Part shown: in pieces, positions 1,179 to 12,281 of the stretch | How positions within the stretch are numbered: the first letter of the stretch is position 1 | Layout: every line of letters begins with the position of its first letter | NCBI GenBank assembly: GCA_903922535.1 | Contig: CAIXUF010001083.1 | Span: 1-16,216 of the forward strand | Source: Candidatus Hydrogenedentota bacterium | GTDB lineage: Bacteria; Hydrogenedentota; Hydrogenedentia; Hydrogenedentiales; CAITNO01 | DNA: 16,216 bases | Reading direction: 5' to 3' | The notes under the pieces: model-generated | What the model was told of the DNA's origin: nothing | The model's database searches: none | What the model saw: the letters and a program-made list of their open reading frames with translations, nothing else | Program-made: the position numbers and the translations under genes

Positions 1179-2653
1179 AAACGACCGTTCCTCTCATCAT
1201 GACAGTCTTGCTCACTGCGGCCTGTGCGGCGTTCGCGCAAACGCCCGCCGAACCGGTGAACATCGGCGCCCGCCTGGAACCGCTGGTGGACCGGATGATC
1301 ATCGACACCCTGACAGGCACCATCCACGCGCTCTGTCCCATCCAGGCGGGGGAGACGGTGCTCCGTTTTGACGCCCCTTGGGAGGGAAGATACTGCGGCT
1401 ATGTGACCGTCTTCAAAGATGCGGACCGTTACCGCATGTACTACCGCGGCCTCCCCGACGACAACAAGGACGGCTCGACTTCCGAAGTGACCTGCTACGC
1501 CGAAAGCCTCGACGGGCACTACTGGGTCAAGCCGAACCTGGGCATTTTCGAGGTACGCGGAACGCGAGAGAACAATGTCATCTTTGCGAACCATGCCCCC
1601 TTCTCGCACAACTTCGCCCCCTTCCTCGACGCCAAGCCGGGCGTGCCCCCGGCGGAGCGTTACAAGGCCCTGGCCGGAACCTCGGAAAAGGGGTTGACGG
1701 CCTTTGTCTCCGCCGACGGCCTGCACTGGGACACCCTGAAGGAAGCCGTCATCACCAAGGGCGCTTTTGACTCCCAAAACGTGGCCTTCTGGTCCGAACT
1801 GGAACAGTGCTACGTCTGCTATTTCCGCACTTGGACGGAAAACACCTACGGCGGGTTCCGCTGGATCAGCCGCACCACGTCGCCCGACTTCCTGAACTGG
1901 TCCGAGCCGGTGGTCATGGACAAGGGCTCCGCGCCATGGGAGCACCTCTACACCAACCAGACCCAGCCCTACTACCGCGCCCCGCAGCTCTACGTCTCCG
2001 TCGCCGCGCGTTTTATGCCGGGCCGAAAACTGGTCTCGGACGAAGTGGCCGCACGGCTCGGAATCCAGGGCAGTTACGGCGGCGACTGTTCGGACAACGT
2101 GCTCATGACCAGCCGCGGCGGCAACAGTTATGACCGCACTTTCCTGGAAGGCTTCATCCGCCCCGGGCTCGGCCCGGAAAACTGGACCTCGCGCACCAAC
2201 TATCCGGCCTGCGGCATCGTGCCCACCGGCAAGAATGAAATGTCCGTGTTCGTCCAGCGCAACTATGGCCAGCCCACCGGCCACCTCGTGCGCTATCCCA
2301 TGCGCCCCGACGGATTCGCCTCAGTCAAGGCACCCTACAGCGGCGGCGAGATGATCACCAAACCGCTCCTCTTTGAGGGCGACGCGCTGCTCCTCAACTA
2401 CGCCACCTCCGCCGCCGGCAGCATGCGCGTGGAAGTGCAGGATGCCGCCGGCAAGCCTGTGGACGGCTTCACCGCGGACCAGTGCGACGAGTTCTTTGGC
2501 GACTTTCTGGACCGGCCGGTGCATTGGAAGGACGGGAAGTCATTGGCCGAACTCGCGGGCCAACCCGTGCGGCTCCGTTTCGTAATGAAAGACGCGGATC
2601 TTTATGCAATCCAGTTTGGAAAGGCTGACAACGGTCCAGCCGCGTCAAAGTAA
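1175..2653 (+). CDS. Secreted beta-propeller protein, GH32/GH43-like (sialidase/BNR-like fold)
   Basis: This 492-residue protein starts at TTG with a strong ribosome-binding site. Residues 1-21 form a signal peptide ending in AFA before QTP. The body contains repeated short motifs seen in five-bladed-propeller glycosidase-like proteins: D-x-Y-R-M-Y-Y-R-G near residue 90, E-S-x-D-G-x-x-W near 110, SADGLHWD near 184, and FDSQNVAFW near 200. Near residue 320 there is D-N-V-L-M-T-S-R, followed by a 'YDRTFLEGFIRPG' stretch. The C-terminal quarter (about 375-485) looks like an all-beta accessory domain ending in an RLRFVMKDADLYAIQF-type strand. Families with this architecture are frequent in Planctomycetota-like genomes and are annotated as GH32-like or hypothetical. 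I cannot assign catalytic residues, so enzymatic activity and substrate are open. It is probably periplasmic or secreted and translationally coupled to the acyltransferase. Confidence 0.8.
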   Translation: MKTTVPLIMTVLLTAACAAFAQTPAEPVNIGARLEPLVDRMIIDTLTGTIHALCPIQAGETVLRFDAPWEGRYCGYVTVFKDADRYRMYYRGLPDDNKDGSTSEVTCYAESLDGHYWVKPNLGIFEVRGTRENNVIFANHAPFSHNFAPFLDAKPGVPPAERYKALAGTSEKGLTAFVSADGLHWDTLKEAVITKGAFDSQNVAFWSELEQCYVCYFRTWTENTYGGFRWISRTTSPDFLNWSEPVVMDKGSAPWEHLYTNQTQPYYRAPQLYVSVAARFMPGRKLVSDEVAARLGIQGSYGGDCSDNVLMTSRGGNSYDRTFLEGFIRPGLGPENWTSRTNYPACGIVPTGKNEMSVFVQRNYGQPTGHLVRYPMRPDGFASVKAPYSGGEMITKPLLFEGDALLLNYATSAAGSMRVEVQDAAGKPVDGFTADQCDEFFGDFLDRPVHWKDGKSLAELAGQPVRLRFVMKDADLYAIQFGKADNGPAASK

Positions 2654-2745
2654 TGGACGAAAATGGACGATACAGACCAACCTGACGGCTGATTCTGTTT
2701 TGCGTCCATTTTGTCCATCGAGTCCATTCTGTCCATACTGTCCAT
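2653..2745. repeat. Inverted ATGGAC/GTCCAT array with 9-base period, copy 1
   Basis: GTCCAT occurs at 2704, 2713, 2722, 2731 and 2740, an exact 9-base period with variable 3-base spacers. Facing it are ATGGAC at 2653 and 2663. Bases 2653-2669 can pair with 2703-2718 as a 16-base-pair stem with one bulged G and a loop of about 33 bases. The first base of the left arm is the last base of the propeller gene's stop codon. The array lies in the convergent gap between plus-strand and minus-strand genes. No T tract follows on the plus strand, so it is not a standard intrinsic terminator, although it could still shape 3' ends. A related array lies at 10634-10743. Confidence 0.85.
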
Positions 2746-4846: not shown

Positions 4847-7120
4847 CTATTGCTTCTTCTGTTCCGGCAGCCACGTGTCCAGCAGGTAGCGCACGTTGAT
4901 CACCTTGGCCGCAAGGTCTACCGGCACATAGAAGTAATGGTTCGACGCCTCGTAGCCGATGCGCGAATCGGCGGTCTGGAGCGCGTACAGCCGCTTGGCC
5001 AGCGCGAGTTCGCTGCGTAGCGCCTCTTCCGCCTTTGCCAGCAACGCGCCTCGCGCCTCCGGCGTCTTGGCCTTCTCCAGCGCATTTCTGGCCGACACAA
5101 ACGCGGACTGGTTGGCCACACTGCGGAAATGAATGGCGCATGCCTCGGCGACGACGGTTTCTTCCAAGAGCGCCTTGGTGTTCGGCTCGTCCGCCGTCCG
5201 GTCCTTCGCCGCGGCGCGCAGGAGCGCCACCGCCTGATCGAATCCGTCGGCCATCTTGCTGAACTGCCCTATGAAGACATCCGCAGGAAAATTCCCCCGC
5301 CATGCGTCCAGTCCATCATAGGGGAGGCCCACCATCGTCGCGGCATAGCCGGTGGGGGCGCCCCATAGCGGGTTGGCCGGACCCATGTGCTGCGGACCCA
5401 TGTAGACCGTGCTGCCGTTGTAGGGGTATTCCGAAAAGGCCGTGCTGCATGTCTTCCATGCATCCACGGCAATCGGGCCAAGCTCCTTGCCAAAACGCCG
5501 CTGCGCCACAATTCGGAGCACCTCATCCACATTCGGTGCGGTGTCATGGCCCATCTCCGCAAAGACCTCAAGATTCGGCGAGGGACATCCGCCGAGCGTC
5601 CAGCCCAGCATCAGCCCGTCCACACCCGCGCCGCGCATATTCGACGCGTGCTGTGCCGCCAGTCCCACCGCCGGGATATAGGGCACCGACGCCAGTTCCC
5701 AGGTCACATTCGCCTGCACCTTGGCCAGCACCTTCAGCCCGGCTTCTTTCGCCACCGCCCAGTTCTTCGTGGCGCGCGGTCCCGGACCGGGCGTCGACAG
5801 GGAGTACTCGCCGATGACACTGTCCACGCCGCCGCGGTTGATGGGGATGCTCCATTCGCTCACGCTCATCATCGAGACGCGCTTGGGCAGCGCGTCCACG
5901 ATGGGCTTGGGCCAGTCGTCTTTCCAGCCCCAGTCCCACGCGATGAGCCGGGCCTTGCCGCCGCCCGCGTCGATGCCCTCCTGCAGCGTCCTATGTAGGT
6001 CGGCAATCACGGCCGGGCCGCCTTCCTTGGCGCAGCGCGGGCAGTTGGCCCCGCCATAATGGGACCAGCAGTTGGTCAGGTTCTCCGAGGCGCTGATGGT
6101 GAAGAACCCGGCAAGATCGGGCACGGCCTTGCAGATGGACGCCACACCATTGCGCAGGTAGTCGCGCACTTCGGGCGCACTGCTGCACATGCTGGCGAAG
6201 CCGCTTTCCTCGACGCCCTTCAAGTCGGGGTGTTTCTCGAAGAACGACAGTGGCATGGCGCGCGGCTCGTTCAGATAAAGATAGATGCCGATGCCATATC
6301 TCTTGGCCCGTTCCACCAGCCTGGCTAGGCTCCTCAGCCGCTCTATGCGGCGGTCGCTCATCGAGGGGTCCCACGGGAAATCGGCCAGTTTGTACAGTAC
6401 AGCCTGCATCCAGACGCCGTTTACACCGGTGCGCGAAAGTTGGTCGAGATAGCCGTCGGGAAAGGACTCGGGCGCACCGTCCAGCAACGGGTCGCCGTAC
6501 ATGGCGAAATAGGACGAACAGAAACGCGGGCTGAAGATGTTGGTCGCGGGCTTTTCGTCGGACGGCGGCAGCGGCGCGGACAGGCGGTCAATGAATCCAA
6601 ACAGTGGGTCCTTCGCACCACCCAGGCCGTCGGGGAATTCCTGTTGAACTATCTGCGCGATTTCCGCCGCGCGCTTCGCCACGGCCGGTTCCGGCGCCTT
6701 GTAATGCAGCGGTTCGCACTTGGGTTTCAGACTGCCCAGCTTGATGTACAGGAAATCATCCTCACGCAGTGTGTAGGCAAGCTGATCGGGCGTCCAGTCG
6801 AGCAGTTGCAGCAACTGGTCATAGGGCAGCAGGTGCCAGTTGCGGCGGATCACCGTGATGAATGCGCGCTGCTTCACCGCGTCCGAGATGGGCGTCTGCT
6901 CCGGCAGGCCCATGCTCTTGGCAAGATCGGCGATCTGCCCCGGTTCCGCGCCGACCACCTTCGCCATGCGGTCCACCGGCACCAGCGGCCAGTTGAACCA
7001 CACGAATGCGTGCAGCCGGTCGGGGAAGTGGGGGAGGGGCACCGGTTCCGGGGTGGGCCCCGCCGGCAGCTCCATTGCGTGCATCATTGCCAGTCCAAGA
7101 ATTGCCCATGCGGTCATCAT
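4847..7120 (-). CDS. TIM-barrel glycoside-hydrolase-like protein with a distinct N-terminal domain
   Basis: This 757-residue protein has its ATG at 7118-7120 overlapping the previous stop by 4 bases (ATGA). AGGAGG at 7125-7130 is 4 bases from that ATG and 7 from the next one, so the second Met may be used. A short hydrophobic N-terminus lacking basic residues could be a weak signal peptide. Residues about 30-135 form a separate, probably helical domain with HAFVWFNWPLVP and VIRRNWHLLPYDQLLQLL motifs. Residues about 195-560 look like a TIM barrel: TGVNGVWMQA, YGIGIYLYLNEPRAMP (275-290), ISASEN (342-347), a cysteine cluster C-x8-C-x2-C (351-363), and LIAWDWGWKDDW (392-403). Residues about 610-757 are helical. 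The fold recalls GH20-like or DUF4838-like hydrolases, but I do not assign a family or catalytic residues. It is the middle gene of a three-gene secreted-protein operon. Confidence 0.7.
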   Translation of the reverse strand: MMTAWAILGLAMMHAMELPAGPTPEPVPLPHFPDRLHAFVWFNWPLVPVDRMAKVVGAEPGQIADLAKSMGLPEQTPISDAVKQRAFITVIRRNWHLLPYDQLLQLLDWTPDQLAYTLREDDFLYIKLGSLKPKCEPLHYKAPEPAVAKRAAEIAQIVQQEFPDGLGGAKDPLFGFIDRLSAPLPPSDEKPATNIFSPRFCSSYFAMYGDPLLDGAPESFPDGYLDQLSRTGVNGVWMQAVLYKLADFPWDPSMSDRRIERLRSLARLVERAKRYGIGIYLYLNEPRAMPLSFFEKHPDLKGVEESGFASMCSSAPEVRDYLRNGVASICKAVPDLAGFFTISASENLTNCWSHYGGANCPRCAKEGGPAVIADLHRTLQEGIDAGGGKARLIAWDWGWKDDWPKPIVDALPKRVSMMSVSEWSIPINRGGVDSVIGEYSLSTPGPGPRATKNWAVAKEAGLKVLAKVQANVTWELASVPYIPAVGLAAQHASNMRGAGVDGLMLGWTLGGCPSPNLEVFAEMGHDTAPNVDEVLRIVAQRRFGKELGPIAVDAWKTCSTAFSEYPYNGSTVYMGPQHMGPANPLWGAPTGYAATMVGLPYDGLDAWRGNFPADVFIGQFSKMADGFDQAVALLRAAAKDRTADEPNTKALLEETVVAEACAIHFRSVANQSAFVSARNALEKAKTPEARGALLAKAEEALRSELALAKRLYALQTADSRIGYEASNHYFYVPVDLAAKVINVRYLLDTWLPEQKKQ

Positions 7121-10100
7121 TTTGCCTCCTCCGCCCGAAGCGCCGCGATCTCCGCGGCGATTCGCGCCCGTTGCTGTTTGATGAGGTTGAAGTCAATCTC
7201 GTAATCCCGCGTCTTCCGCGTGATTTCGTCAATGCCCTTGATCTGTCCGCCCACCACCTGTTCCACCATCACGTCAATCGCGGCCAGCGCATGGTCAGCC
7301 GCCGCAACTTTGCCCGCCGCGCGTGCCTTCTCCGCCTCCGCGCGCAGCGCGTAGAGCGCGCGATAGTCTTCCTGCCCGTCACGGCAGGCTTCCCAGCGAC
7401 GCGACGGTGTCACCTGGTCGCCCGTCTGGTATACCACGGACCAGTCCGCCGTCTCCAGCGGCCACCACGTGTCATGATACTTGTAGCACCAGAAACCCGA
7501 GCCCTTGAGCCCCAGCTTCCACGCGGTCCACGCATACGCGCGGTAATAGCCCAGCGGCAGCAGGTTCTTGCCTGGGTCCGTCGCCTCATATGCCCAGAGC
7601 GTCTTGGAATTCTGCTGGAACCAGTGCAGCAGTTCCGGGTCGCGCTTGAGCACGTTCACTTCGGGCTGCCACACGTCGATCAAATCCTTGAACTCCGCCA
7701 CGTACTGCACGCGCATCATGCCCGTCGGATCGGCATAATTGCGAATCTTGGGATCGACGGCCTTCACCCGTTCGCAGAATTTGCGCAGCTCTGGAATGAT
7801 CGTCTGTCCCGTCAGCCACGGCTCATCGTAGGGGTAGAACACCCAGCGATCATAGCCCCATCCTTTCTCCGCCAGGTGTGACGCCAGGGTGCGCACCGCC
7901 GTGGCGAAGCCCTGGTTGGCTTCCGGGCTGTCCGCCGCGGGGGCCTTGCCGTCCGGCCATTGCAGCGACGGCGGCCCCGCAAAGGTCAACTGGAACCACG
8001 CAGGCAGCCGGTCCAACGACTTGTCAAAGGTGGTCCAGTCGGACGCATCTGCCGCCGCGCCCTGCGCGTCCACCGGCACGGCGGGCAGATGCGGACCGTA
8101 GGCCACGCTCATCCCATGGTCCAGCATGTCCTTCAATTGCTGGTCTGAAGTCTCGGCGATGTCCACGCCCACCCAGTTCATCTGCGCATACACGCCCTCG
8201 GGCAGCCGCACCGGCAGTACCTCGATGGTCACCGGAATTTCGCGCAGTGTGCAGCTTTCTTCCAGTGAACCCAAATACAGCGTCACCGTGTGCATGCCCG
8301 CTTCCAGCCCGTGCGTGTCCACCACCAGCCACAGTTGTGACGTTTCCAGCGGGGACAGCGTGATGGTACGCGACAGGTCCAGTTCGGGCAGCGCATCGAG
8401 CACCTGTCCGCCGTTGGGCGCGGACACCATGACGCCGCGCCGCAGCGTGATGTGATTGGCCAGTTCCGGGTCCTTGTCGGGCGCGTTGCCGCCGAATTTC
8501 GGCTTGTTGAACACGCAGCGCACATTCATTGCGTGGTCGGTCACGTTGAGCAGATTGATCGCGGCATCCTCCGACTCGTCGCCAAATGCTGTTATCTTGA
8601 TCGGCGGCGCGGGCTCAAGTCTTCCCGGCGACTCATCGGGCGGGAACGGGTCCCAGGGATTGTCATCCCGCCAGCAAACGAAGCTGCCACTGTTTCCTCC
8701 CGTCCAGAACTCGGCCAGAGCGTTGGCGCGGCGCGCAAGGCATGTCGCCTCGCGGCGCAGCGCCGTGGCCTCCTCCGCAAGGGCCGCGTCGAGTGGATTC
8801 TTCTCCGCCTGCCCGCGGACCTGATCGCGATGCGCGGTCAGACGCGTCAGGCCAAGCAACAAACCGTCCACCTCGTCGCCCCTGCCTGCCGCGATGGCGT
8901 TGTTGCAGTCACCAGACAGGCGGTCCATGCCGCACTCGTCCTCCGCCTCGGTGGCAAAACCGCCCTCAAACCCGGCGAGCGGCGCGGCCAGGCCGGAGGC
9001 GAGCAATTGCGTGCCCAGCACGGTCATGCCGGGCACGGGCACACGAAACGATAGCATCGCGTCCGTTGCGCCGGACACCACGGGCACAACACGGATTTCT
9101 GACAGGGCATCGGCTCGACGAACGGAAATCTCGATGAAGGCCTGATCCGGCGCGGGTGTGGTCCAAACGGCGTGGACTTCATTGTCGCCGACGACGAACC
9201 CGTAAATGTCCAGATGCATTCCCTCGACCGGCTTGGCCGGAACGGCAACGGGCACGCCCGGTGCGACATTGCCCCGGCCGGTCAGCGCCGAATCGCCGCG
9301 CTGCGAGGGCCACACAACGCGGCCTTTGCCGCCCCAAGCAATGCACTGCACCGCGTCGGGCAGGCAGACGATGGCTTCCAGCACGCCATCCCCGTCCAAG
9401 TCACCCATCGCGGTCGCGGTAATGCCGTTGCCGCCCAGTTTCAGCGGCGTGACCTTTGTTCCGTCATCACTCACCAGAAAGTGGCTCGCGCCGGTGACCG
9501 GGTCCGTGTCACGGACGCCCACCAGCACCTCGGGGTGGTTGTCGCCGTCCACATCGCCGATGCTCGGCGGCGAAAAGATGCCCCGTCCGGCCAGTTCGCG
9601 CCGCCAGCGCTCCGATCCGTCCTGGTCCGTGCAATAGAGGAAATTGCCCTTGTCCCCATGCACCACCTCCAGCAACCCGTCCCCGTCCATGTCCGCCGTG
9701 GCAAGGGCCACGTAGCTCTGCATCTCATCCTTCACGCGCCATAGCAGCTTTCCCGTGCCGCCGTCCAGGGCCGTCAGGCAGGTGTTGTTGCCTGCGTTGC
9801 TCCGCGTGAACAGCACCTCCACGTGTCCGCTGTGCTCCAGGTCTGCCAGATTAATCCCGGACCGCCCGTAGGTCATGGTATTGTCCGTGAAGCGCCACTT
9901 CACCGCGCCGAACCCATCGAGACAGTAGAGGTTGCCGTTGTCCGTGCCATAGACGATTTCCGCGAAGCCGTCGCTGTCCGCGTCGCCGATGGCCGGAATG
10001 CCCGCGCGGAACCGGTCGCCGAAAAAGCGCCAAAGCACATGGCCGTCGGATGCAAGACAGTACACCCAGCCGTCCAACCGGCTGACCACGGTTTCCAAAC

Positions 10101-10509
10101 CCGGTGAGGGGTGCACATCACTTACGGCGGGCATTTGCAGGCCCTGCTTTTGCGCCTGCAAGTCAGCCGTCCAGCGGGTTTTGCCCATACTGTCCAGACA
10201 GACCACCATGCCGTTTGCAAGCACCACCAGCGCCTCCGGATCGCCCTTGCCGTCAATGTCCGCCACCGCCAGCGGCTGCGCCACGTTTGCTGGAAGCGTC
10301 TCGGTCCACACGGCCTTTCCCGTGCCGTCCAGCAGGAACACCTCCGTGCCGACCGCCGTGATAACGCCGGTCGGATTCTCCGCATCAGGATACAGCGTGG
10401 GGGGGGTGGCCATGGTTTTGGTGGGATAAGACCATTTAACGGTCTGTGCGGAGGCTGGGTGGTTCAGAAAAAGAAGGGCACACAGGATAAAGCAAGCACA
10501 GCGGAGCAT
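7117..10509 (-). CDS. Secreted eight-repeat propeller fused to a GH123/DUF4091-like catalytic domain
   Basis: This 1130-residue protein starts at ATG 10507-10509. GAAAGGA is 6 bases upstream, and a signal peptide ends at ASA (residue 21). An upstream in-frame ATG at 10743 is rejected because it would translate a repeat array. Residues about 35-400 hold eight repeats of roughly 45 residues. Each has a D-x-D-G calcium-loop-like turn (ADMDGDGLLEV, GDLDGDGVLEA) and an L-D-G-x-G-x-x-x-W strand, mixing FG-GAP/VCBS and PQQ-propeller features. Residues about 420-600 include a fibronectin-like strand region and a helical segment; about 640-770 is a beta-sandwich. Residues about 775-1060 resemble the GH123 catalytic barrel, with FYPYDEP (891-897) supplying adjacent D895-E896, then VWQPEVN and SGFWCYKYHDTWWP. 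In GH123 N-acetyl-beta-galactosaminidases an adjacent Asp-Glu pair drives substrate-assisted catalysis. GalNAc as substrate is inference only. A helical tail ends the protein. Confidence 0.8.
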   Translation of the reverse strand: MLRCACFILCALLFLNHPASAQTVKWSYPTKTMATPPTLYPDAENPTGVITAVGTEVFLLDGTGKAVWTETLPANVAQPLAVADIDGKGDPEALVVLANGMVVCLDSMGKTRWTADLQAQKQGLQMPAVSDVHPSPGLETVVSRLDGWVYCLASDGHVLWRFFGDRFRAGIPAIGDADSDGFAEIVYGTDNGNLYCLDGFGAVKWRFTDNTMTYGRSGINLADLEHSGHVEVLFTRSNAGNNTCLTALDGGTGKLLWRVKDEMQSYVALATADMDGDGLLEVVHGDKGNFLYCTDQDGSERWRRELAGRGIFSPPSIGDVDGDNHPEVLVGVRDTDPVTGASHFLVSDDGTKVTPLKLGGNGITATAMGDLDGDGVLEAIVCLPDAVQCIAWGGKGRVVWPSQRGDSALTGRGNVAPGVPVAVPAKPVEGMHLDIYGFVVGDNEVHAVWTTPAPDQAFIEISVRRADALSEIRVVPVVSGATDAMLSFRVPVPGMTVLGTQLLASGLAAPLAGFEGGFATEAEDECGMDRLSGDCNNAIAAGRGDEVDGLLLGLTRLTAHRDQVRGQAEKNPLDAALAEEATALRREATCLARRANALAEFWTGGNSGSFVCWRDDNPWDPFPPDESPGRLEPAPPIKITAFGDESEDAAINLLNVTDHAMNVRCVFNKPKFGGNAPDKDPELANHITLRRGVMVSAPNGGQVLDALPELDLSRTITLSPLETSQLWLVVDTHGLEAGMHTVTLYLGSLEESCTLREIPVTIEVLPVRLPEGVYAQMNWVGVDIAETSDQQLKDMLDHGMSVAYGPHLPAVPVDAQGAAADASDWTTFDKSLDRLPAWFQLTFAGPPSLQWPDGKAPAADSPEANQGFATAVRTLASHLAEKGWGYDRWVFYPYDEPWLTGQTIIPELRKFCERVKAVDPKIRNYADPTGMMRVQYVAEFKDLIDVWQPEVNVLKRDPELLHWFQQNSKTLWAYEATDPGKNLLPLGYYRAYAWTAWKLGLKGSGFWCYKYHDTWWPLETADWSVVYQTGDQVTPSRRWEACRDGQEDYRALYALRAEAEKARAAGKVAAADHALAAIDVMVEQVVGGQIKGIDEITRKTRDYEIDFNLIKQQRARIAAEIAALRAEEAK

Positions 10510-10515
10510 CACAAA

Positions 10516-10522
10516 TCCTTTC
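10516..10522 (-). promoter_or_regulatory. Ribosome-binding site fixing the 10509 start
   Basis: On the minus strand GAAAGGA lies 6 bases before the ATG at 10507-10509. It selects the start that gives a signal peptide over the in-frame ATG 234 bases upstream. Confidence 0.7.
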
Positions 10523-10540
10523 GTTTGCGGAATGTTCCTC

Positions 10541-10546
10541 ACTATA
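10541..10546 (-). promoter_or_regulatory. Candidate -10 element for the polysaccharide operon
   Basis: TATAGT on the minus strand lies about 32 bases upstream of the ATG at 10509. It sits in the AT-richest part of the gap between the folate run and the secreted-protein operon. No convincing -35 is seen at 17 or 18 bases (best match TGGAAC, 3 of 6), so this is a location hint only. Confidence 0.2.
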
Positions 10547-10633
10547 GAATGCGGGAAACCCTTAGTTCCATCGGGATTCGTGCTCCCATAGAGGCGGCTA
10601 TTCTGCGGGGCATCGCCCAGGACTATTGAGGCA

Positions 10634-10743
10634 ATGGACTTTATGGACGATATGGACGACATGGACAGCATGGACGCAATAGGTGGGTGAATCAGATGCA
10701 CGTCCATCTCGTCCATAAAGTCCATTTCGTCCGTAGAGTCCAT
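10634..10743. repeat. Inverted ATGGAC/GTCCAT array with 9-base period, copy 2
   Basis: ATGGAC occurs at 10634, 10643, 10652, 10661 and 10670. The facing units are GTCCAT at 10702, 10711, 10720 and 10738, with a one-base variant (GTCCGT) at 10729. The period is exactly 9 on both arms, the 3-base spacers vary, and the loop between arms is 26 bases. Folding brings all five hexamers of one arm opposite those of the other, giving a ladder of 6-base-pair stems separated by 3-base internal loops that pair only in part. The array lies in the 288-base gap after the HD-domain gene and before the polysaccharide operon. The same unit appears at 2653-2745. Confidence 0.9.
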
Positions 10744-10797
10744 GACGCAAGTTTGTCAAGCCAGTCGAACGGACGTTTTCGGAATGATGGGTTGGCT

Positions 10798-11391
10798 TCA
10801 GTCTTCCTGCGCCGCCAGCCCCTTCAGCGCGTCCAACTGCTCCTTCAGCGTCTCCAATATGGGATGGTCCCATCCCTGGCAGAGCGCCTCATACATGGAC
10901 TCGTAATACCACAGGCTGCCCTCGCGGCCGCCCTTAAACACCTTCCAGGTGTCCTCGCCGTGCTGGCGCAGGCCCCGGTAGACGGAGCGCATGTTGTGCA
11001 GCTTGTCCGCCGCGACAATGAGCCGCACGTCCGGACCGGCCGTGGCCGCCTCTGCCAGGTGCTTTTCCTTGCGCTCGCGCCAGGGCGGTTTGGGCATTTC
11101 CAGCGTGTCGCTGCACGCCAGCACCAGTTCGGCCACGCGGGGGCCGAACTCTTCGCCGATGCGGTCGAGCGTTTTTTGGCCGCCCTGGTCCTCCGCCGCA
11201 TCGTGCAGCAGCGCCGCGATGAACAGGTCCTCGTCGCCGCCGTACTCGCCCACGATGGAGGCCACGCCCAGCAGGTGCGTCACATAGGGGACCCGCTCCG
11301 GCCCCCGCCGCCGCTGCCCGCCGTGCAGTTCGAAGGCCAGCGTCAGCGCTTCCAGCACCCGCTCCGTGTAGGTATGGCCGGTCTCGCTCAT
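10798..11391 (-). CDS. HD-domain phosphohydrolase, (p)ppGpp-hydrolase (MESH1/SpoT-HD) like
   Basis: This 197-residue protein starts at ATG 11389-11391, overlapping the previous stop as ATGA. A longer open frame starts upstream, but the overlapped start gives the family's normal N-terminus. The HD metal site is complete: H39 in YVTHLLGVA, H63-D64 in ALLHDAAED, and D129 in AADKLHNMRSV. HDxxED (residues 63-68) and the D-K-L-H-N-M-R block are characteristic of RelA/SpoT hydrolase domains and of stand-alone alarmone hydrolases. There is no synthetase, TGS or ACT domain, and the length matches a small alarmone hydrolase. Expected activity is Mn-dependent removal of 3'-pyrophosphate from (p)ppGpp, or of a phosphate from a related nucleotide. 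A generic HD phosphohydrolase remains possible. It is the last gene of the run containing the folate genes. Confidence 0.85.
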   Translation of the reverse strand: MSETGHTYTERVLEALTLAFELHGGQRRRGPERVPYVTHLLGVASIVGEYGGDEDLFIAALLHDAAEDQGGQKTLDRIGEEFGPRVAELVLACSDTLEMPKPPWRERKEKHLAEAATAGPDVRLIVAADKLHNMRSVYRGLRQHGEDTWKVFKGGREGSLWYYESMYEALCQGWDHPILETLKEQLDALKGLAAQED

Positions 11392-12281
11392 TTCGTTCCG
11401 CGCTCCTTCAACACCGTGATCAGTGCTCCGGGCTCGTCCGTCTGGATGCCGTCCACCTTCCATTCCAGCAGCGGCATCCAGGTGACGGGTCCCAGGTCAT
11501 CCACAATGACGGCCGCGTGGCTGTTGTGGCAGGTCTCCACGAAGGCTGGCGTCAACGTCTTGAAACTGGATGCGACGACGACGAGTTTGAACGTGTCCAG
11601 CATCCGTTGCAGTTCGTCCTTCGAGTCCGGCTCCGGCATGGGGAAACATTCCGGGCAGGCCTTCTGCAGGTCGGTTATCTCCGAACCGCCCGCATACCAG
11701 ACGCAGTCGCGTTCCATTCCGCGCTCGCGCAACATCTTGACAATCTGCTCCACATTCGCGGCCTTGAGATCAATATAGACGCCGATCTTGCCCTTGCACA
11801 GATCCAGGATTTCACCCAGTTCGGGAATCCGTTCATTCTTCCATTCGGGACCCACGCGGCTGCCAATATCCATGGCTTTCAGTTCGGCCAAGGTGAAGTT
11901 CTTTACCGGACCCTTGGCGTCCTTCGTATAGCCATCCACTTCGCTGTTGTGCATGCTGACGATGTGGCCGTCTTTCGTGGTGCGGGTGTCGATTTCGACA
12001 AAGTCCGCGCCCAGTTCAATCGCCTTGGCATATGCGGCCAGGGTGTTCTCCGGAATGCCCACGTGCGCGCCCCGATGCGCCACCACATACACGCCGCCTT
12101 GCCGCGGCTGCTTTGGCAAAGACATCACGGGACCGGCATATGACAAATCGATACAGCCGGCAGAAAACAACGACAGCATGACAATCAAGCACAGAAACGG
12201 CGACCGGCCTGCGGATGCGTGACAGGTGCTGCCAATGCCGCTTAATCTGTAATTCGTAATTCTCAATTTGCAACTCCTCAT
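11388..12281 (-). CDS. Glycerophosphodiester phosphodiesterase family lipoprotein
   Basis: This 297-residue protein has the GDPD core: H69-R-G, E78-N-T, E96-x-D98 and H111, then IGVYIDLK and a C-terminal [12 protein letters not shown]. Known enzymes hydrolyse glycerophosphodiesters to glycerol-3-phosphate and an alcohol using a bound divalent metal. A hydrophobic stretch (residues 28-41) ending in FSAGC43 suggests a lipoprotein anchored outside the cytoplasm. Two oddities stand out. The catalytic loop reads HN instead of the usual HD, and the region after it ([10 protein letters not shown]) departs from the canonical LDRTTxGxG. The ATG at 12279-12281 overlaps the folE stop as ATGA, yet residues 4-13 are encoded by an AT-rich repeat-like stretch, so the N-terminus may be extended by inserted sequence. 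The substrate may differ from simple glycerophosphodiesters. Confidence 0.85.
12241..12273. repeat. AT-rich AATTACGAATT-type repeat remnant at the 5' end of the GDPD gene
   Basis: On the minus strand this stretch contains AATTGAGAATTACGAATTAC, which encodes KLRITNY-type residues. It is much more AT-rich than its surroundings. The same residue pattern (NYELRITNYELR) is familiar from translations of dispersed low-complexity intergenic repeats in many bacteria. Only about one and a half units are present, so the repeat origin is inferred. Confidence 0.4.

Follow-up and report, generated by a model that had tools for sequence, protein, structure and literature searches.

Positions 10,634 to 10,743 of a 16,216-nucleotide contig from a Candidatus Hydrogenedentota bacterium (CAIXUF010001083.1; this whole stretch is the window) hold a facing array of short repeat units, referred to here as array 2. 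Five ATGGAC units, starting at 10634, 10643, 10652, 10661 and 10670, stand opposite five units starting at 10702, 10711, 10720, 10729 and 10738; four of these five are exact GTCCAT, and the unit at 10729–10734 is GTCCGT. A sequence-only reading of the window had described five ATGGAC and five facing GTCCAT-type units in a 9-base register around a 26-base loop, and the coordinates confirm it, with GTCCGT as one of the units. The facing 5+5 array is genuine and exceeds chance. The window contains 24 ATGGAC where 7.9 would be expected, a total of 24 being reached in none of 200 shuffles. Across all words, exact 9-bp runs extend to five units, compared with three at most in 100 Markov shuffles. 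The array folds as RNA with −68.8 kcal/mol (z −8.1) on the plus strand and −56.9 kcal/mol (z −5.5) on the minus strand, and equal stability is seen in 0 of 200 shuffles for either strand. Array 2 is a copy of an element that is dispersed widely, not a conserved feature of its site.

Array 1 of the window belongs to the same family. It is a 2+5 array with ATGGAC at 2653 and 2663, a pair 10 bases apart and hence one base off the 9-base register, and five GTCCAT units at 2704–2745. Array 1 overlaps the final base of the stop codon of the open reading frame (ORF) 1175–2653, and array 2 lies downstream of the minus-strand HD-domain gene, about 55 bases from its stop and about 125 bases ahead of the likely start of the next gene on that strand (Table 1). 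Both arrays thus lie downstream of a transcription unit, as had been proposed from the sequence. A mechanically called minus-strand ORF of 1208 amino acids runs into array 2, starting at 10743; the likely true start at 10509 is followed by an apparent signal peptide, and 10510–10743 is a mechanical extension. An intrinsic terminator at array 2 is ruled out because no T run is seen by eye on its 3' side. The Rfam scan of the window and a plasmid search with positions 10600–10780 each returned 0 matches.

Table 1 Arrays and neighbouring genes in the window
Feature	Coordinates	Strand	Basis
Array 1, of array 2's family: two ATGGAC facing five GTCCAT	2653..2745	.	sequence
Gene with beta-propeller and FG-GAP repeats, likely start 10509	7117..10509	-	ORF, domain matches
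Array 2, 5' arm: five ATGGAC, period 9	10634..10675	+	sequence
Array 2, loop of 26 bases	10676..10701	+	alignment to repeat copies of genome G042
Array 2, 3' arm: GTCCAT x3, GTCCGT, GTCCAT, period 9	10702..10743	+	sequence, RNA fold
HD-domain gene (PF13328), ends about 55 bases from array 2	10798..11463	-	ORF, domain match

A dispersed family of facing arrays

A scan of a genome collection with the pattern ATGGAC N3 ATGGAC, a gap of 8–38, and GTCCAT N3 GTCCAT returned at least 118 matching stretches, in agreement with the earlier view that two such loci in one window indicate a family and not chance. The titles among the matches listed include Lentisphaerae, Chlamydiae, Chlorobiaceae, Hydrogenedentota, Sumerlaeota, Cloacimonadota, Planctomycetota, Desulfomicrobium, Geobacter and others. 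A stricter facing-array pattern is matched by one viral contig, and a facing array is present on an IMG/VR contig (L001, 1758–1830). In one Lentisphaerae genome several arrays (L005, L024, L026, L105, L118, L119) share a near-identical adjoining flank and therefore sit within larger repeats.

The closest relatives of the window separate the element from its site. The 757-residue protein of the window is 88, 86 and 84% identical to proteins of genomes G040, G051 and G042 in a search within their phylum, Hydrogenedentota, to which the window appears to belong; the identities suggest that the three are close kin of the window genome. The syntenic site of G051 holds a single short arm, made of two exact units and one variant, and that of G040 has no ATGGAC unit; the G042 contig stops short of the site. 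In G040 the site (L209, 12975–13340) holds other filler, with cccttcgggg-type palindromes in place of the array. An array absent or scrambled in related strains, which the sequence-only reading had named as evidence against itself, is thus what this gene pair presents.

At the same time, several related whole elements occupy different sites of one genome, so that dispersal is directly visible. Five regions of G042 (L335, L336, L338, L339 and L340) have an element in common, loop included; three pairs are 90–92% identical over 92–126 columns and the other listed pairs 75–84%. Array 2 of the window aligns to L335 with 76% identity across 93 columns and to L340 with 75% identity across 96. The bases flanking the G042 arrays are partly common to the copies, indicating that the copied unit can exceed the array; no longer matches were found between these regions of 1.1–1.6 kb.

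Where two arms face each other, their orientation is fixed head to head, as had been noticed in the window: in loci of the partner gene described below, 46 elements are '><' and one is '<>'. The expected enrichment between genes is also found, 56 of 97 arrays being intergenic against 9.5% of random positions, and convergent gaps hold 43% against 24%; these figures exclude 21 arrays at contig-piece edges and rest on crude ORF calling. Among 114 facing ATGGAC elements the loop measures 3 to 38 bases with a mode of 21, a range shaped by the gap limit of the scan, and 10 of 303 left-arm spacers begin with C. Covariation of the spacers, suggested earlier as a check, does not appear, since pairing in register (0.377) is no better than out of register (0.36–0.42). 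Both values exceed the 0.284 obtained under global permutation, which fits a genome-specific make-up of the spacers and not covariation. The constrained regulatory RNA ladder that had been imagined at the window site finds no support in these spacers or in the short or missing array of G051 and G040, and the earlier interpretation as a whole is borne out in part.

A four-helix-bundle protein associated with the arrays

In 8 of 119 pattern loci, a script places the array within a reading frame just before a conserved motif. Four of these eight proteins were scanned, and all four match TIGR04258 (four helix bundle suffix, 4HBS) above its curated cut-off of 40 bits, together with an N-terminal match to TIGR02436 that also exceeds its cut-off. 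PF05635 scores 26.4–31.6 bits in the four, compared with a gathering score of 33.8, and the precomputed label PF05635.18 is carried by 119 of 120 among the relatives listed, one of which is 99% identical to a scanned protein. Apart from these three families, the Pfam and NCBIfam scans gave only a glycine-rich match far under its cut-off, and no HUH/Y1 transposase domain. One 4HBS protein has at least 8000 relatives, not all of which need carry the suffix. The bundle superposes on solved S23/Avd-type four-helix bundles, and the fold resembles 8ub7_B, a chain of a diversity-generating retroelement (DGR) ribonucleoprotein that is presumably Avd; a sequence search of solved structures gave nothing significant. 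As a separate suffix domain (TIGR04258), the fourth helix follows a low-confidence, array-encoded stretch, and an array-type peptide stands at the place before the conserved motif in 15 of 15 relatives read by eye, all close kin of one query. Two proteins of the CGGATC word class (L133, L134) have cysteine-rich ends, which by eye we take to resemble a topoisomerase-type zinc finger. To our knowledge, no role of the S23-type bundle family has been settled except in DGRs.

The association between the arrays and the 4HBS gene is evident in a set of 156 loci, 155 of which yielded a 4HBS frame. Arrays of a 9-bp-periodic word with at least three linked copies are present in 92 of the 155 loci and in 0 of 465 shuffles. 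When all words are considered, 42 loci have exact facing 2+2 arrays at period 9 and 7 have them at period 10; periods 7, 8 and 11 give none, and neither do the shuffles. Arrays of the gene's own word lie upstream of it, downstream of it, or within it before the fourth helix; among 81 4HBS genes in loci with a labelled word, that word lies within 300 bp upstream in 59 and downstream in 40. The word CACGGAC, at period 10, marks a group of related 4HBS proteins (L139, L232, L244, L263, L264, L277, L289 and others). In 81 of 115 cases, the closest protein from a different genome predicts the array word. A tree of 115 of the 155 proteins (in the other 40 the core or the suffix could not be located, and 42 of the 115, having no word, were left out of the count) likewise shows that words track 4HBS phylogeny overall, not for every class. 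The repeat word therefore coevolves with the 4HBS protein, with some classes scattered on the tree.

No conserved neighbour emerged from 20 neighbourhoods of 12 kb, in which two families occur in three loci each and the others in two at most; the ORF filter retained the 4HBS frame in 15 of the 20, so that weak neighbours could escape. Read from their coordinates, the members of one family are antisense frames over 4HBS genes; the other is made up of generic ABC ATPases, and two of its three loci are syntenic with each other in Chlorobi. In the literature covered, which leaves most subscription papers and bioRxiv outside, no title or abstract opening links four-helix-bundle proteins to such arrays, and no paper was found with the phrase 'four helix bundle suffix'. 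PMC12306157 contains no mention of four helix, Hydrogenedent-, Chlorobi-, Lentisphaer- or tandem.

Across genomes, the sequence-only reading had envisaged a conserved protein whose presence follows the arrays, and 4HBS behaves in this way, gene and arrays co-occurring in Hydrogenedentota and in Chlamydiota. A 4HBS match is found in 39 of 48 genomes with facing ATGGAC arrays and in 0 of 14 control genomes; the 48 were selected for these arrays, which favours ATGGAC near 4HBS genes. Two further sets, of 68 and 232 genomes, were drawn from one phylum each, and these phyla were chosen because they include array-bearing genomes. Word counts in these genomes exclude the fetched loci and use thresholds of 1, 5 and 10 matches, uncorrected; with the pattern reversed as a control, each strand of a genome gives at most 1 match for five of the words and at most 5 for CACGGAC. 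The classes that agree best with genome-wide arrays of their own word are CACGGAC (7/11 vs 3/57 at 10 matches, 9/11 vs 12/57 at 1), AAGGAC (5/7 vs 6/61 at 10, 6/7 vs 14/61 at 1, p=2e-3), CGGATC (2/13 vs 3/55 at 10, not significant; 9/13 vs 11/55 at 1) and TCGGAC (9/11 vs 13/57 at 1, p=3.6e-4; 8/11 vs 8/57 at 5; 6/11 vs 5/57 at 10), the CGGATC and TCGGAC patterns partly matching the same GGATCGGAC arrays. It was predicted beforehand that G070 and G071, which have TCGGAC-class proteins and none of the first five words, would contain TCGGAC arrays. G070 has 13 matches, 6 of them outside its 4HBS locus, and G071 has 4, all within its locus, so that only G070 is an independent success.

A proposed repeat and partner-protein system and its rivals

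The array is probably a non-autonomous dispersed hairpin element in a system of repeat and partner protein, with a logic like that of RAYT and with 4HBS as the candidate partner. In such a system the 4HBS protein, an S23/Avd-type four-helix bundle and perhaps an oligomer like its S23 relatives, would recognise the repeated word when the strand is folded and thereby allow copying or maintenance of the element, in the manner of RAYT with REPs. The 4HBS gene often contains, in the stretch from its third helix to the suffix helix, an array of its own word, and additional copies often lie on its upstream or downstream side. The chemistry might come from 4HBS itself, a host nuclease or another helper. 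Association and dispersal are shown, whereas binding, mobilisation and chemistry are inferred. The copies in the window may be orphaned, because two of the three closest genomes have no 4HBS match. We also propose, tentatively and at somewhat less than even confidence, that these are an undescribed class of hairpin repeats, genome-parasitic or domesticated, in which a four-helix-bundle protein and not a transposase recognises a periodic word of 6–7 bases in a clade-linked code, and in which the array between two helices marks the protein's own gene.

Several observations weigh against this proposal. A single exact arm is found in 147 of 205 elements of the 4HBS loci and in 27 of 33 from a further set of scanned loci, although these counts rest on exact runs and may miss degenerate partner arms. 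The four scanned proteins show no nuclease domain, and the 114 facing elements no spacer covariation. Forty of the 155 loci have no word label; on the tree, the TATAGGAC group and a mixed group are unclustered, and GTGGAC needs 9 changes for 13 rows. Nine of the 48 genomes with facing ATGGAC arrays show no 4HBS match, and neither do G064 (77), G107 (57), G051 (27) and G042 (22), each with at least 20 array matches; in Chlamydiota, G022 (66) and G023 (69) have no TIGR04258 match. Most genomes are drafts, which makes absence of the gene weak evidence. The link of ATGGAC arrays alone with any 4HBS in Hydrogenedentota is weak (p=0.013), that with ATGGAC-class proteins gives p=0.26, 0.26 and 0.044 at 1, 5 and 10 matches, and the GTGGAC class is not significantly linked to its own arrays. 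Enrichment is also seen for several pairs of array and protein from different classes: at 1 match, AAGGAC arrays are associated with the GGGAC class (p=3e-4) and the ATGGAC class (p=7e-4) of proteins as strongly as with their own (p=2e-3). The Fisher tests treat genomes as independent, and the genomes are related and probably incomplete.

The main rival is regulation at the RNA level, in which 4HBS would bind hairpin arrays in mRNA, protecting these transcripts or processing them, and would regulate itself through the array in the 4HBS mRNA; spread would be secondary. The enrichment between genes, which is strongest in convergent gaps, the stronger plus-strand fold of array 2 and the resemblance to a chain of the DGR ribonucleoprotein are consistent with it. 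However, the spacers do not covary, the array is short or missing at the window site in two close relatives, and a facing array is the same on both strands and so marks no transcript strand; we regard this rival as unlikely, with a real share of the probability. A route in which 4HBS is an Avd-like cofactor and the arrays move by reverse transcription, the enzyme being encoded elsewhere, draws on the fold resemblance to the presumed Avd chain, on a description of PF05635 as resembling Avd in PMC10053308, and on a mild link between reverse transcriptase (RT) and arrays (25/43 vs 5/25, p=0.0026, own loci not subtracted). It is improbable given 14 genomes with at least 20 array matches and no PF00078, including G105 (336), G057 (283) and G099 (213). 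Moreover, among 101 4HBS and 64 RT matches listed, one contig is common to both (G078:C23), where the two lie about 64 kb apart and the RT match is under its cut-off. RT seems not to be required. Neutral minisatellites, arising by slippage and template switching with no partner, would account for the variable arm length and the common one-armed runs. We consider them very improbable in view of the restriction to period 9 (or 10), the 46:1 polarity of facing pairs, the words that track protein relatedness with matching of cognate word and protein, and the slots that arrays occupy at the 4HBS gene.

Known systems place the proposed repeat and partner-protein system more closely. In the papers on repetitive extragenic palindromes (REP) and RAYT (PMC2817692, PMC8266576), palindromes are dispersed, the gene is flanked by its own repeats, repeat and protein coevolve, and gene presence is linked to repeat abundance. 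The arrays resemble REP/REPIN with RAYT (TnpA-REP), or 'REPtrons', in all four respects: the palindromic elements are dispersed, the 4HBS gene is flanked by cognate repeats, word and protein coevolve, and gene presence is linked to array abundance. Unlike in REP/RAYT, the partner is a four-helix bundle with no transposase domain found in the four scanned proteins, each arm repeats a short word with a period of 9 or 10 bp, and the gene often has an array within its own reading frame. The S23 family of proteins of 23S rRNA intervening sequences (PF05635, TIGR02436) is similar in fold and in the above-cut-off TIGR02436 match, but its members differ from 4HBS, in which the fourth helix forms a separate TIGR04258 suffix behind the array-encoded stretch. 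Unlike for DGR Avd, no nearby RT is found for 4HBS in Hydrogenedentota among the matches listed, many contigs being short and template and variable repeats not having been looked for. Rickettsia palindromic elements are palindromic repeats inside reading frames. PARCELs (PMC2996958) are also palindromic repeats inside reading frames, with a motif of 25 residues, and are thought to spread between lineages. Like both, the repeats described here can sit in reading frames and presumably pass from one lineage to another; unlike the 25-residue motif of PARCELs, their unit is 9 or 10 bases and comes with a candidate cognate protein. From the matched proteins and DNA words, binding can be predicted directly. 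If the proposal is true, REP-like systems of repeat and partner arose with a protein unrelated to transposases.
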